Shown one piece after another: positions 7,382 to 34,768 of a DNA stretch of 63,320 nt. Positions within the stretch are counted from its first letter, which is position 1. Each line of letters opens with the position of its first letter. The stretch is from positions 1 through 63,320 of the forward strand of contig CAIRBT010000107.1 in assembly GCA_903876875.1 (NCBI GenBank), given 5' to 3'. Below the pieces are notes generated by a model, which saw only the letters and a list, made by a program, of their open reading frames with translations, was not told the origin of the DNA and made no database searches. Position numbers and translations under genes: made by a program. This DNA is from an uncultured Geobacteraceae bacterium. Lineage in GTDB: Bacteria; Desulfobacterota; Desulfuromonadia; Geobacterales; Pseudopelobacteraceae.

Positions 7382-8401
7382 CTACAGCGTCCTGCCATCG
7401 GCCTCGGCAAAAAGACGGAGCTTTTTCATCATTTCAGCGAATTTTTCCGGTTTCAATGATTGCGCCCCGTCGGACGATGCATGTTCGGGATCGGGGTGAA
7501 CCTCAACGATTAGACCGTCGGCACCGGCGGCAACGGCGGCATAACTCATGGGAGCAACATAATGGTGATTGCCCGTACCGTGGGAGGGATCAATGACCAC
7601 CGGCAGGTGGGTTTTCCCCTTCAGTACCGGTATGGCAGACAAATCAAGGGTATTGCGAGTTGCCGTTTCAAAGGTTCTGATGCCCCGTTCACAGAGAATA
7701 ACCGACTGATTCCCCTCACTCATGATGTACTCGGCACTCATGAGCAGTTCCTGAATGGTCATGGCCATCCCCCGCTTCAGCAGTACCGGTTTACCAAGCT
7801 GCCCCACCTTTTTGAGCAGAGCAAAGTTTTGTGAATTTCGGGCACCGATTTGCAAAATATCGGCATAATCAGCCACCATGTCGGCGGTTTCCGGATTGAT
7901 AACTTCTGTAACAAAAGGCAGGCCGGTCAGATCCCTGGCCTTAGCCAGCAGTTTAAGTCCCTCCTCCTCAAGTCCCTGAAAGGAATAGGGAGAAGTGCGG
8001 GGTTTGAAGGCACCACCACGCAAGATATGGGCACCCGATTGTTTCACCGCACGGGCCGACTCAAGAATCTGCTCTTCACTTTCCACCGAACAGGGACCGG
8101 CCATCATAATGATGCGGGAACCACCAATGACCACATCATCACTGATGCGTACCGTACTGGACTCCTTCTTGACTTCAAAGGAAGCCAACTTGTACGGCTG
8201 GAGAATAGGCACCACATTTTCAACCCCATGGAGGGTTTCCAGGGCTTGAAGTGCCAGTTTGCCCCGCTCGTCGCCAATGGCACCGATCACATCGCGGGTA
8301 GTGCCATGGATAACATGGGAAGTGTATCCCAGCTCCTTGATCCGCTTTAAGACTTCATCCCGGTCTTTCTCTGCAGCTCCTGCCTTCATAACGATTATCA
8401 T
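7382..8401 (-). CDS. aroF: 3-deoxy-7-phosphoheptulonate (DAHP) synthase
   Basis: A 339-aa enzyme condensing phosphoenolpyruvate and erythrose-4-phosphate, the first step of the shikimate pathway to Phe, Tyr and Trp. The N-terminal ~75 residues ([20 protein letters not shown]) form the ferredoxin/ACT-like domain of the Thermotoga/Bacillus-type enzyme. The catalytic barrel follows, with [21 protein letters not shown], a metal/substrate region [11 protein letters not shown] and [12 protein letters not shown] chose the ATG at 8401 (GGA about 7 nt upstream), which gives the usual family length; the frame extends to 8665 but that upstream part is a regulatory leader. A Phe/Tyr/Trp-rich leader peptide and terminator lie directly upstream, indicating attenuation by aromatic amino acid supply. 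Confidence 0.93.
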
Positions 8402-8422
8402 AGGGTGTCCTTTCATCCCACA

Positions 8423-8461
8423 AACAGTAAGAGCCGGGAATCTTCCCCGGCTCTTACTGTT
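8423..8461 (-). promoter_or_regulatory. Perfect 16-bp hairpin just upstream of aroF
   Basis: 8423-8438 pairs perfectly with 8446-8461 around a 7-nt loop. On the minus strand it follows the attenuator's U-tract and ends about 20 nt before the aroF ATG. No U-run follows it, so it is more likely a stabilising or translation-affecting stem than a second terminator. Confidence 0.55.
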
Positions 8462-8465
8462 CTCG

Positions 8466-8511
8466 CGAAAACAGAAAACAACCGGGGTAGACTCGCGTCT
8501 GCCCCGGTTGT
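8466..8511 (-). terminator. Intrinsic terminator (attenuator) in the aroF leader
   Basis: RNA segment 8511-8497 pairs with 8492-8478 (14 of 15 positions, one C-A mismatch) around the loop GCGA. It is followed on the minus strand by TTTTCTGTTTT. It sits between the leader peptide and aroF. Segment 8504-8497 (GGGCAGAC) can alternatively pair with 8557-8550 (GTCTGCCC), which overlaps the end of the leader-peptide frame; that pairing would block the terminator. Confidence 0.85.
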
Positions 8512-8535
8512 GGTTTTGTGTGATAGCTTCTCGGC

Positions 8536-8622
8536 TTACACCTCTACCCGGGCAGACGGCCTGAAGTAAAAGCCGTACCAGAAATAAAAGTTGAAAGTTG
8601 TAAAGAAGCGGTGTGAGTTCAT
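8536..8622 (-). CDS. Aromatic-rich leader peptide of aroF
   Basis: A 28-codon frame, ATG at 8622 and TAA at 8538-8536, reads MNSHRFF then [13 protein letters not shown] then RPSARVEV. Seven Phe, three Tyr and one Trp make 11 of 28 residues, nine of them Phe/Tyr/Trp codons within residues 10-20. This is the hallmark of attenuation leaders such as pheA or pheST. Codons 16-17 (8576-8572, ACGGC) can pair with 8560-8556 (GCCGT), forming the protector stem; a ribosome stalled on aromatic codons would cover it and free the anti-terminator. The stop codon lies just past the anti-terminator segment, as expected. No Shine-Dalgarno is obvious and the ATG may be at or next to the transcript start. No homology search was possible. 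Confidence 0.82.
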
Positions 8623-8629
8623 AGTTTGT

Positions 8630-8658
8630 ACTAAAACACAGTGTTGACAGCTTGTCAA
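8630..8658 (-). promoter_or_regulatory. Candidate sigma70 promoter of the aroF leader
   Basis: TTGACA (8658-8653) is followed after 17 nt by TTTAGT (8635-8630). It starts 7 nt after the cheV stop codon. TTGACA also forms an inverted repeat with TGTCAA (spacing AGC), a possible operator. A start near 8624-8622 would make the leader peptide mRNA nearly leaderless. Confidence 0.5.
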
Positions 8659-8665
8659 GAGCCAA

Positions 8666-9607
8666 TCATGCAGTCAGTTCGTCAACCACGGTTACCAACC
8701 GGGGAAGGTCAGGCTTGGTAAGAATACAGTTGGCACCGAGCCCTATCCATTTACGTTTATTGTCTTCAGATGCAAGTGAGGAGAAGATGGCGACCGGCAT
8801 GTCTTTTAACCGATCTTCTTTCCGCACCAGGGATGTCAAATGGAGCCCATCCATCTGGGGCATCTCCACGTCGGTAATCAACATACTGATATGCCCCAGA
8901 AAGGTACCGTCACCCTTGGCTACCTTTTCAAGGGTTTCCTGGATAATCTCCCATGCCTGCAAACCGTTTTCTGCCTCAATAACGTTATAGCCCGCCGACC
9001 GAAGACCAGAACAGAGCGTTCTTCGAATGAATACCGAGTCATCGGCAACCAGCACCGTTTTTTGGGTTCGTTCAGGATGGGGTTCTGCGCGGTCAAGCAG
9101 CATTTCGTCCAGCGGCTTAAGGGCACTTTCGGAACAGAGTTCCGCCACTATTTTTTCAAAATCAAGCACCAGAATAATCCGGTTATCCATTTTCACCAAG
9201 CCGGTGACCTCATCACTATGTACCGACGCCGAAGGTGCTTCAACATTCCTCCAGGAAATGCGGTAAATACGGGATACGGAATGAACCAGAACCCCGACCA
9301 TCAGATTATTAAATTCAAGCACCACCACCCGGTCAGCAACCAGGTCACCAACCGATTTATTGAGCACCGTGGCAAGGTTGATAATGGTAATAACCTTATC
9401 GCGCAGCTTGATCATCCCCTCAACACCCGGCTTGGCATTAACCACCCGTGACATTTGGGGCAAGCGAATTATTTCCCGCACCTTTGCCACATTAACACCG
9501 TAATAGCAGGGAAATACATTGCCATGCCAATCAACTTCGTCGATCCTGAACTCGACAATTTCAAGTTCATTGGTATCGCTTTCAAGAAGGATCTTGCTCT
9601 GCTTCAT
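8666..9607 (-). CDS. cheV: Chemotaxis protein CheV (CheW-receiver fusion)
   Basis: A 313-aa CheV. Residues ~15-165 form a CheW-like coupling domain (YYGVNVAKVREIIRLP, GVEGMIKLRDKVITIINL, DEVTGLVKMDNRIILVLD). Residues ~185-313 form a response-regulator receiver with acidic pocket DD, phospho-acceptor Asp in TDVEMPQMDG, the S/T position in FSSL and the conserved Lys in TKPD. It couples chemoreceptors to CheA and tunes adaptation by phosphorylation. It stands alone among biosynthetic genes with no other che gene in the window. The start at 9607 is followed by MKQSKILLESDTNE, typical of Geobacter CheV proteins. Confidence 0.9.
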   Translation of the reverse strand: MKQSKILLESDTNELEIVEFRIDEVDWHGNVFPCYYGVNVAKVREIIRLPQMSRVVNAKPGVEGMIKLRDKVITIINLATVLNKSVGDLVADRVVVLEFNNLMVGVLVHSVSRIYRISWRNVEAPSASVHSDEVTGLVKMDNRIILVLDFEKIVAELCSESALKPLDEMLLDRAEPHPERTQKTVLVADDSVFIRRTLCSGLRSAGYNVIEAENGLQAWEIIQETLEKVAKGDGTFLGHISMLITDVEMPQMDGLHLTSLVRKEDRLKDMPVAIFSSLASEDNKRKWIGLGANCILTKPDLPRLVTVVDELTA

Positions 9608-9731
9608 AGTCGATGATCACCTTTCATGTATGGCATAGCAAACGTTCATTTTCATAAATTAATATACAGCATCGTGAGAAAAAAACAAACTAACTTTACT
9701 GTCGATATTTATTTTTACCCCCGTGGGTCAC

Positions 9732-9760
9732 TTGACTCTCTCCAGTGCCTGTGTTAGCTT
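9732..9760 (+). promoter_or_regulatory. Weak candidate promoter for trpE
   Basis: TTGACT (9732-9737) then 17 nt then TAGCTT (9755-9760), with TG one base before the -10 (extended -10 form). It lies 32 nt before the trpE ATG. I looked for a Trp-rich leader in this spacer and found none. Confidence 0.35.
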
Positions 9761-9791
9761 TTTAAGATCATTACTATTTATGGAGTTGCCC

Positions 9792-11267
9792 ATGTTTTTC
9801 CCGCCACGCGCCACATTCCACACTCTTGCTGAAAAAGGCAATCTTATACCGGTTTATCGGGAAATAATGGCTGATATGGATACACCGGTATCTGCCTTTA
9901 AGAAGCTCGATAATGGGCAATTTTCCTATCTTCTTGAAAGTATTGAGGGGGGTGAAAAATGGGGACGCTACAGCTTTCTCGGTTCCAATCCGTCACTGAT
10001 TATTCGCTCGAAAGGGGCGATTGTTGAGACCATTGAAAATGGCATCACAATCACAACGGTTTCCGAAGACCCCTTAACCGACATCCGTACCCTGCTGGCA
10101 ACCTTCCAACCGGTTGAGGTTGAAGGCCTCCCCCGTTTTTTTGGCGGTGCCGTCGGCTATCTGGGGTATGATATGGTACGGCACTTCGAACAACTCCCCA
10201 CGGAAAAACCGGCACTTATTGACGCCTATGATTCATACTTTCTCATCACCGACACGATTGTCATCTTTGACACCATGAGTCAGAAAGTTAAAGTTGTTTC
10301 AAACGCCCACGTAAGCGGTGAGCTGTCTGCCGATCAGGCATACGACGAGGCAACCGCGAAAATCGATGCCATTGTGGCCCGACTCAAGACCCCCCTCCCC
10401 CTTGAAACAGCGGCACCGGCTCCAACGCCGGTGGAACTGACGTCGAACATGACCCGTGAACAGTATGAAGCTTCGGTGGAAAAGGCCAAGGAGTACGTTC
10501 GAGCCGGCGACATTATACAGGTTGTCCCCTCACAGCGGTTCAGCGGCAGACTTTCAGCCGATCCTTTTGACGTCTACCGGGTTATGCGGACAATGAATCC
10601 CTCACCTTACATGTTTTTTCTCCGCCTTGACGATACAGTCATTGCCGGAGCATCACCTGAGGTTATGGTGCGTAAGGAGGGAACCCGTGTTGAGTTGCGC
10701 CCTATCGCCGGTACCCGGCCACGGGGAGTAACCGGTGAAGAGGATTGCAGACTGGCCGAAGAGTTGCTGGCAGATCCCAAAGAGCGGGCAGAACATGTGA
10801 TGCTGGTTGATCTGGGCAGGAATGACCTGGGACGGGTCTGCACCACCGGCTCAGTCACGGTCACCGAATTGATGATTATCGAGCGGTATTCCCACGTCAT
10901 GCATATTGTTTCCAACGTGCGGGGGGAACTTGCCACGGGGCGGGATGCCTTCGATCTGGTACGGGCAACCTTTCCGGCCGGCACCCTTTCCGGTGCACCG
11001 AAGATCAGAGCCATGCAGATTATTGACGAACTTGAACCGGCCCGTCGGGAGATTTATGGTGGTGCCGTCGGCTACTTCTCTTTTTCAGGGAACATGGATC
11101 TGGCCATTACTATCCGGACGCTGGTGGTCAAGGATGGCATGGTACATCTACAGGCCGGTGGCGGCGTCGTTGCCGATTCCGATGCCGCAGCCGAATGGCA
11201 GGAGACCGTCAACAAGGCCATGGCGGCACGCCGGGCCATTGAAATTGCCGAGAGGGGATTGGAATAG
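9792..11267 (+). CDS. trpE: Anthranilate synthase component I
   Basis: A 491-aa TrpE, which with the glutaminase TrpG converts chorismate to anthranilate for tryptophan. It carries the N-terminal NLIPVYREIMADMDTPVSAF region that binds feedback Trp in the family and the chorismate-binding domain with ELRPIAGTRPRG, LVDLGRNDLGRV, MHIVSNVRGEL, FPAGTLSGAPKIRAM and IQAGGGVVADSDAA-like motifs. I chose ATG 9792 (MFFPPRATFH) because GGAG lies about 7 nt upstream and this is where family similarity starts; ATG 9780 is an alternative. No trpG or trpD follows: the next gene is convergent and begins 2 nt away. Confidence 0.93.
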   Translation: MFFPPRATFHTLAEKGNLIPVYREIMADMDTPVSAFKKLDNGQFSYLLESIEGGEKWGRYSFLGSNPSLIIRSKGAIVETIENGITITTVSEDPLTDIRTLLATFQPVEVEGLPRFFGGAVGYLGYDMVRHFEQLPTEKPALIDAYDSYFLITDTIVIFDTMSQKVKVVSNAHVSGELSADQAYDEATAKIDAIVARLKTPLPLETAAPAPTPVELTSNMTREQYEASVEKAKEYVRAGDIIQVVPSQRFSGRLSADPFDVYRVMRTMNPSPYMFFLRLDDTVIAGASPEVMVRKEGTRVELRPIAGTRPRGVTGEEDCRLAEELLADPKERAEHVMLVDLGRNDLGRVCTTGSVTVTELMIIERYSHVMHIVSNVRGELATGRDAFDLVRATFPAGTLSGAPKIRAMQIIDELEPARREIYGGAVGYFSFSGNMDLAITIRTLVVKDGMVHLQAGGGVVADSDAAAEWQETVNKAMAARRAIEIAERGLE

Positions 11268-34683: not shown

Positions 34684-34768
34684 CCCTCTTTCAGTAACCC
34701 GGCTACCCGTTAAACGGACCCGTGGTTTTGCGTCACCGGGTCACCCCGGCTTTGCCTTTTTCAGAGAA
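34684..34768 (-). promoter_or_regulatory. GEMM-I cyclic-dinucleotide riboswitch aptamer
   Basis: The minus strand shows the conserved GEMM-I elements in order: GGCAAAGC, a 5-bp P2 stem CCGGG/CCCGG with GNRA loop GTGA, then GACGCAAAACC, a P3 stem, GGTAGCCGGGTTACT, and a closing P1 (TCTC with GAGG). Compared with the Vibrio Vc2 form this covers both halves of the ligand pocket. GEMM-I RNAs bind c-di-GMP, and a Geobacter subgroup binds 3',3'-cGAMP; I could not place the specificity base with confidence, so the ligand is open. A terminator and the RHS/dockerin/lipoprotein operon follow. Confidence 0.88.

Follow-up and report, generated by a model that had tools for sequence, protein, structure and literature searches.

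A probable ribosome-mediated attenuator of aroF with a leader rich in Phe, Tyr and Trp codons, and the possible family of leaders around it

Leader families in Rfam include the Trp, Phe, His, Leu and Thr leaders and the T-box, and branched-chain operons are known to have leaders that respond to several amino acids. No Rfam leader family was found at the gathering threshold in the window (the whole 63,320-nt stretch of DNA analysed here, from an uncultured Geobacteraceae bacterium) or in 10 related loci, nor at E ≤ 10 in positions 8380–8700 of the window. As outlined in excerpts of PMC1183508 and in general background, the enterobacterial trp and phe attenuators share with the locus described below a short ORF of cognate codons, mutually exclusive 2:3 and 3:4 helices, a stop codon over segment 2 and an intrinsic terminator; unlike them, the aroF leader here mixes three amino acids, precedes the gene for the first common enzyme and is probably leaderless.

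Attenuators at the entry to aromatic synthesis are already a known kind of control. According to excerpts of the papers concerned, Corynebacterium glutamicum aroF has an attenuator-type leader with Phe-Tyr-Phe (PMC4046766, PMC3890552); Acholeplasma aroF has a candidate uORF attenuator, uORFC-13-1, with at least one Phe codon by the terminator and a ribosome-binding site (24 representatives, from Acholeplasma and environmental sequences only; PMC8632094); attenuation of E. coli aroF has been hypothesised (reported in PMC8632094); and an aroF element has been predicted in Shewanella (PMC2659441). A 2005 survey gives, as database predictions, putative attenuators at Desulfovibrio vulgaris aroA'-aroB' (an ADH-synthase-type operon), Thermus aroAI-beta > tyrA and Vibrio aroAI-alpha > tyrA (PMC1173090, in part). 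Compared by description only, the excerpted C. glutamicum leader also stands before a DAHP synthase gene, names no Trp and comes from another phylum; uORFC-13-1 is likewise a candidate uORF before aroF by a terminator; and the attenuators of the survey likewise precede first aromatic steps, its section 36 and Table 7 describing neither a leader peptide nor a core motif, nor an aroF leader of Geobacter. A first-pass annotation of our locus had called attenuation of a DAHP synthase much rarer than TyrR/TrpR-type repression and feedback inhibition; it does have proposed precedents (PMC4046766, PMC8632094).

Leaderless attenuators also have parallels. The excerpted account of Sinorhizobium meliloti trpL (rnTrpL) has its RNA beginning at the AUG of the leader ORF; unlike the aroF leader here, it reads Trp only, has 14 residues, belongs to an alphaproteobacterium and yields products that also act in trans (PMC7298713). 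The Corynebacterium diphtheriae ilvB leader is likewise reported, in the part of PMC5784534 available, as leaderless. Within the accessible text of the open-licence literature we found no leader described before Geobacter aroF, no order-wide, probably leaderless leader saturated with three aromatics, and no RNA core common to many genes of a phylum, nor codon exchange on such a core.

The aroF leader and its coding region

We consider it very probable that the spacer between cheV and aroF holds a ribosome-mediated transcription attenuator of a TIGR01361-kind DAHP synthase gene, one that senses Phe, Tyr and Trp as a common supply. Anatomy, conservation, coding selection and antiterminator covariation are read from sequence; where transcription starts, whether it terminates in vivo, how it responds to amino acids and what the second hairpin might do are inferred. 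The elements in the window, in 5' to 3' order of the minus strand, are:

9607–8666, minus: cheV, named from its CheW- and CheY-like halves
8658–8653, minus: −35 element TTGACA, 7 nt downstream of the cheV stop codon
8635–8630, minus: probable extended −10 (TG-T-TTTAGT), inferred, after a 17-nt spacer and 7 nt upstream of the leader ATG
8622–8536, minus: leader peptide ORF, 28 codons of which 11 aromatic, without Shine-Dalgarno
8576–8572 with 8560–8556, minus: proposed protector of 5 bp, weak
8557–8550, minus: segment 2, GUCUGCCC, within Pro-Ser-Ala-Arg codons
8538–8536, minus: leader stop codon
8513–8508, minus: CCACAA, complementary to UUGUGG at 8423–8418 near the aroF Shine-Dalgarno (helix X, tentative)
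8511–8478, minus: terminator hairpin T1 (segments 3:4), with a GCGA loop
8504–8497, minus: segment 3, GGGCAGAC, antiterminator partner of segment 2 and part of the T1 5' arm
8487–8482, minus: CCCCGG in segment 4, able to pair with CCGGGG (8450–8445) in the 5' arm of T2, a possible 4:5 relay
8477–8468, minus: U-tract of T1, TTTCTGTTTT, read from the sequence
8461–8423, minus: T2, a second conserved hairpin (segments 5:6), its stem not followed by a U-tract
8414–8408, minus: aroF Shine-Dalgarno GAAAGGA, read from the sequence
8401–7382, minus: aroF, the regulated gene, encoding a DAHP synthase (NF006421/TIGR01361 by family search)

The TTGACA, the 28-codon frame with its 11 aromatic residues, segments 2 and 3, and the terminator with its U-tract are all read on the minus strand as the first-pass annotation had them. 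Three further features were not part of that annotation: the TTGACA spacing without a Shine-Dalgarno, the second hairpin T2, and the recurrence of the core at other genes. The leader ORF ends 134 nt before aroF, and its aromatic run spans 11 residues.

An equally aromatic ORF arose in none of 2000 simple shuffles of the cheV–aroF spacer, and 11 Phe, Tyr or Trp in 28 codons has a binomial P of about 9e–6 if 8.5% aromatics is assumed as background. We searched for AroF in 58 genomes, our own included (37 from the genus and 21 from the order), 56 of which were readable upstream. An aromatic leader ORF is kept in all 56 (mean aromatic fraction 0.37), so that the short aromatic-codon-rich ORF characteristic of ribosome-mediated attenuators, with 11 of 28 codons in the window, appears to be present throughout. 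A Trp codon occurs in 55 of the 56; the sole leader without one, in G022 (L138), precedes an aroF match with an internal stop.

Selection on this ORF was gauged in an alignment of 36 rows (A1), with dN/dS taken from the first 33. Values were 0.185 for sensor codons 2–20 and 0.143 for codons 6–20, from pairwise counts that come from related sequences and hence are not independent; such low ratios suggest that the peptide is translated and that its aromatic residues matter. Codons 21–25, which hold segment 2, are nearly static at both kinds of site in the same 33 rows (pS 0.035, pN 0.036), which places the constraint there at the RNA level. Phe6, Trp15 and Gly17 are invariant in 36/36 rows, the Phe codons 6, 12, 14, 18 and 20 are conserved in 34–36 rows and Tyr13 and Tyr19 in 33 and 32, with Phe and Tyr interchanging across the alignment at codons 7, 10 and 16.

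The promoter-like TTGACA is also conserved, lying 35–38 nt upstream of the leader ATG in 56/56 genomes (37 nt in 26, 36 in 14, 38 in 13 and 35 in 3), though a simple promoter scan found no sigma-70 site at the locus. The scan requires an A at position 2, which is missing from the −10 TTTAGT, so the case for a promoter rests on conservation. A −35 hexamer at this distance would put the transcription start at or adjoining the A of the leader ATG. No Shine-Dalgarno-like word precedes that ATG in any of the 56 genomes, and one precedes aroF in all of them; the leader mRNA is thus probably leaderless. Seven of nine Desulfuromonadales-type loci (L066–L069, L071–L075) carry Shine-Dalgarno-like words instead.

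Antiterminator, terminator and the position of the ribosome

In the mechanism we propose, transcription would start at the leader AUG and the peptide would be translated from a leaderless mRNA. With charged Phe-, Tyr- or Trp-tRNA in short supply the ribosome would slow in codons 6–18 and leave segment 2 free to pair with segment 3 once the latter is made, a pairing that would block T1 and allow aroF to be transcribed; with all three amino acids plentiful, the ribosome would reach the stop codon and cover segment 2, so that T1 would form and transcription end. Segment 3 is common to the antiterminator and to T1, which makes the two structures mutually exclusive.

The leader region folds far better than its dinucleotide shuffles (z = −7.24), T1 having a predicted energy of −25.3 kcal/mol (8513–8476). 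Segment 2, GTCTGCCC, is perfectly complementary to segment 3, GGGCAGAC, on the minus strand of the window, and this pairing of 8557–8550 with 8504–8497, put forward by the first-pass annotation, covaries strongly. In an alignment of 46 sequences picked to span the order and its neighbours (A2), 98.6% of the cells of the 2:3 helix are paired and 25 are doubly changed, vs. 2.6 in shuffles (0/500 as many), while versions of the helix slid out of register are at most 48.6% paired. All eight pairs form in 43 of the 46 rows (L063 has seven, L122 six and L051 four). Examples of the covariation are GTCTGCCC/GGGCAGAC, GTCTACCC/GGGTAGAC and GTCCACCC/GGGTGGAC, and further CTCCGCCC/GGGTGGAG and ATCGACCC/GGGTTGAT. 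Homologous leaders without aromatic codons, or with stems that do not covary, had been named in advance as counting against an attenuator; the leaders are aromatic in 56/56 genomes and the antiterminator covaries.

The 5' arm of T1 shifts by one base between clades of A2, and T1 was accordingly judged sequence by sequence; its arms appear to change together in distant relatives. A U-rich tail follows T1 in 32 of 35 Geobacterales-type loci. There is no U-tract after T1 in the Geomonas-type loci L052, L053, L122, L125 and L126, nor in L051, and in the Geomonas-type loci T2 may have taken over termination, or termination may have disappeared. The leader peptide and T2 are retained in Geomonas-type loci, two of which (L052 and L053) are on named Geomonas contigs.

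We also scored 80 named contigs, which overlap in part with the genomes above, by an automatic rule for the leader plus the full 8-bp antiterminator helix, and found both in 48. Among the closer contigs (67–97% AroF identity), of which the nearest are Geobacteraceae metagenome genomes, 42/43 have both, L063 having only seven of the eight pairs. Among the more distant contigs the fraction is 6/37, all six being labelled Rokubacteria; aromatic leaders with an incomplete helix occur in L086 and L092. Two contigs labelled Thermodesulfovibrionales and Nitrospiraceae (L062 and L064) carry a Geobacter-like aroF (78% and 76% identity) together with the leader, which would reflect gene transfer or misbinning.

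Ribosome positions were modelled by masking the RNA under an assumed footprint (−18 to +12 relative to the A site) and folding the remainder. With segment 3 just made, the predicted probability of the antiterminator is 0.97–1.00 with the A site at codons 4–18, falls to 0.75 at Y19 and 0.09 at F20, and is 0 from codon 21 through the stop; F20 is too near segment 2, and stalling there is predicted to fail to antiterminate. A ribosome finishing at the stop codon (8538–8536) sits over segment 2 in the model, bearing out the earlier suggestion that the stop is placed for such masking. Because segment 2 would be freed by a stall at each of the aromatic codons as far as codon 18, the leader is predicted to read the common pool for the first common enzyme; such sensing of the combined pool, also proposed in the first-pass annotation, draws support from these codon positions and from relatives in which the codons differ with the gene.

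Two features of the model qualify the switch. For the full-length RNA, T1 is predicted to be the more stable fold at every ribosome position, so that the switch would have to be kinetic. The model also forms the antiterminator when no ribosome is present (P = 0.95), and an untranslated leader is thus predicted to antiterminate, by which measure the protector seems weak. That stem (8576–8572 with 8560–8556), described at first as a protector, is the weakest part of the scheme: in the 36 aligned sequences its four inner pairs are kept, though nearly invariant, but the outer A-U pair is present in 7 and absent in 29. We regard it as unproven and weakly supported. We also considered a hairpin at the stop codon (GUGUAAGC/GCUAUYACAC), which is conserved, and set it aside for unsupportive covariation (1 doubly changed cell, 45/500 shuffles).

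A second hairpin and a possible relay

Between T1 and aroF lies T2, which in the window has 18–19 bp and a predicted energy of −32.4 kcal/mol and which covaries in the 36 sequences of A1 (19 doubly changed cells vs. 6.0, 0/500). Segment 4 of T1 and the 5' arm of T2 are complementary, and the scheme resembles the E. coli his attenuator, whose AB/CD/EF and BC/DE states, as excerpted from PMC10989985, correspond to 1:2/3:4/5:6 and 2:3/4:5 here; unlike in that attenuator, the U-tract here is on the middle hairpin, T1, in most Geobacterales-type loci. A six-segment relay of the his type can be drawn accordingly, in which the 2:3 pairing would free segment 4 to pair with the 5' arm of T2 and so open a second terminator. 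Of 137 loci, 99 entered the analysis of this relay; two were without segment 3, 19 were removed by hand as misdetected, and 17 more were dropped for having no second hairpin of 9 bp or for falling below the pairing cut-off.

Over the 99 loci the cognate 4:5 pairing is stronger than permuted pairings (mean −15.7 vs. −13.0 kcal/mol, 0/5000), and it is so among the 58 loci outside the Geobacterales-type and Methylomirabilota/Rokubacteria sets (0/5000), but it is no better than permuted in the 35 Geobacterales-type loci themselves (1227/5000) or in the six Methylomirabilota/Rokubacteria loci (707/5000). The latter six would otherwise suit a relay, as the U-rich tail is on T2 in all six and on T1 in one. 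The 8-nt core of T1 is mismatched in 15 of the 35 Geobacterales-type loci, and six of these 15 match T2 at 8/8 positions, yet the other nine match it at only 6 or 7 of 8. Moreover, a 6-bp helix could hardly keep the 18–19-bp T2 of the window open, a U-rich tail follows T2 in only 13/35 Geobacterales-type loci, and T1 and T2 may be mere duplicates of one another. Given that T2 in the window is very stable and has no U-tract, we lean against a relay here while keeping it as a tentative possibility; T1 is the terminator of the mechanism set out above.

Helix X (8513–8508 with 8423–8418) ends just before the aroF Shine-Dalgarno. It is 95.4% paired, a level that 34/500 shuffles reach, and has 2 doubly changed cells (5/500); we keep it, tentatively, as a candidate. 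As far as sequence can tell, T2 and helix X together could add translational control of aroF.

Related leaders across the phylum and the weighing of other readings

From A2 we built a covariance model (R1). In our own genome R1 finds the aroF leader alone, four other matches having E > 0.5. The second DAHP synthase of that genome (G000 C125, 53% identical) has no aromatic leader, the best short ORF in the 500 nt upstream having 2 aromatics, and no run of Trp codons was seen by eye in 9590–9820, ahead of the window's trpE (ORF 9723–11267, plus strand). Searched at E ≤ 0.001 against 297 genomes sampled from the phylum, R1 matches 101 (70 of 198 genera), and a shared core, GUCUGCCC / CCnnGGGCAGAC, recurs ahead of several aromatic genes.

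We examined 82 of the 118 listed R1 matches, the remainder being 8 from our order and 28 more, 27 of which were among the weakest. Behind these leaders lie the genes for 35 TIGR01361-kind DAHP synthases, 12 periplasmic binding proteins, 11 ADH synthases, 7 PaaK-like ligases, 6 AroFGH-type DAHP synthases, 2 aminotransferases and 2 shikimate kinases; the rest are a pair with no label in common (one member with a 3-dehydroquinate synthase domain), a single LeuA, a single IorA, two others and a locus lacking a clear ORF. These are labels of clusters in which the family search named only one to three members each (for example PF13458 in two binding proteins and TIGR01949 in one ADH synthase), and the PaaK, IorA, shikimate kinase and L181 labels score under the curated cut-off. 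The Desulfovibrio aroA' attenuator, going by the part of PMC1173090 that treats it, probably belongs with the 11 ADH-synthase leaders, and it may be one example of single family members having been predicted earlier.

The antiterminator is largely retained in these relatives. In an alignment of 84 model matches (A3) it is 98.6% paired, with 39 doubly changed cells vs. 9.3 in shuffles, in an alignment that is itself fitted to R1. At least 7 of the 8 pairs form in 75/84, and fewer in 9: L176, L217, L222 and L243 form 5 or 6, L218 forms 2, and L190, L191, L204 and L220, loci of the AroFGH-cluster DAHP synthases, form none. The near absence of pairs in L218 and the latter four indicates that these matched R1 by their codon run. 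Members of the proposed family often carry two hairpins in tandem.

The peptide content shifts with the gene behind the leader. Leaders before paaK are Phe-rich with few Tyr, the leader before iorA has five consecutive Trp and that before leuA is Leu-rich; those before binding proteins are Tyr-rich or Phe-rich, and those before DAHP and ADH synthases are mixed. Over the same 82 leaders, segment 2 is read in frame 0 in 32, frame 1 in 16 and frame 2 in 34, and the retention of its RNA in all three frames suggests either one ancestral chassis with codon exchange or a further sequence-specific constraint. We put at about even odds the view that the aroF leader belongs to a modular attenuator family, in this phylum (Desulfobacterota by inference) and in Methylomirabilota/Rokubacteria, with a conserved core and exchanged sensor codons. 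The proposed reach of such a family, on which our judgement is equally balanced, would take in a large share of the aromatic genes (both types of DAHP synthase, ADH synthase, shikimate kinase, aminotransferase, paaK-like genes, iorA and periplasmic binding proteins) and, once, leuA. In the phylum of the Rokubacteria-labelled G059, R1 matches 10 of 95 genomes at E ≤ 0.01, G059 itself not among them, and Rokubacteria aroF leaders with the same core do exist.

Some individual loci are of note in their own right. Phe-rich leaders stand ahead of phenylacetate-CoA ligase-like genes in L163, L167, L168, L169, L179, L241 and L244; from sequence, Phe-rich leaders at ligase-like genes suggest that aryl-acid use may be under the control of charged tRNA-Phe. 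In L227 (1–360) two core-bearing leaders lie in tandem ahead of an ADH synthase gene, and in L213 (198–1697) the gene behind the core leader codes for a DAHP synthase domain with a prephenate dehydratase domain after it.

These comparisons bear on two other readings of the aroF leader. It might sense mainly one amino acid, Trp through codon 15 or Phe by sheer number, with the other aromatics as filler: Trp15 is the same in every one of the 36 rows of A1, unlike codons 7, 10 and 16, where Phe and Tyr replace each other, and Trp is found in 55/56 genomes. However, Phe 6, 12, 14, 18 and 20 (34–36 of 36) and Tyr 13 and 19 (33 and 32 of 36) are almost as conserved, and every such codon except F20 lies where stalling is predicted to antiterminate; relatives at single-amino-acid genes, moreover, can hold pure runs, as with the five Trp before iorA. 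We judge a single sensor unlikely. Far less likely still is that no ribosome switch operates, and that a constitutive terminator and an mRNA-stabilising structure accompany a small, functional aromatic peptide. The independent covariation of T2 and the protein-level selection on the peptide would fit such an arrangement, but it leaves unexplained an antiterminator that covaries and uses segment 3 of T1, a segment 2 whose RNA is kept in three reading frames, and a peptide whose content shifts with the gene.

If this is correct, a large and mostly anaerobic group of bacteria controls entry into aromatic synthesis through one leader that reads three amino acids. The same core with exchanged codons would amount to a series of natural experiments on how an RNA reads out a slowed ribosome, and its recurrence offers a ready search model for a little-studied regulon. 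Work on how leaderless initiation is coupled to transcription would also gain from a conserved attenuator that is probably leaderless.

Elsewhere in the window, a c-di-GMP-I riboswitch (RF03168, UAU variant) was found on the minus strand at 34689–34765, with 68.8 bits.
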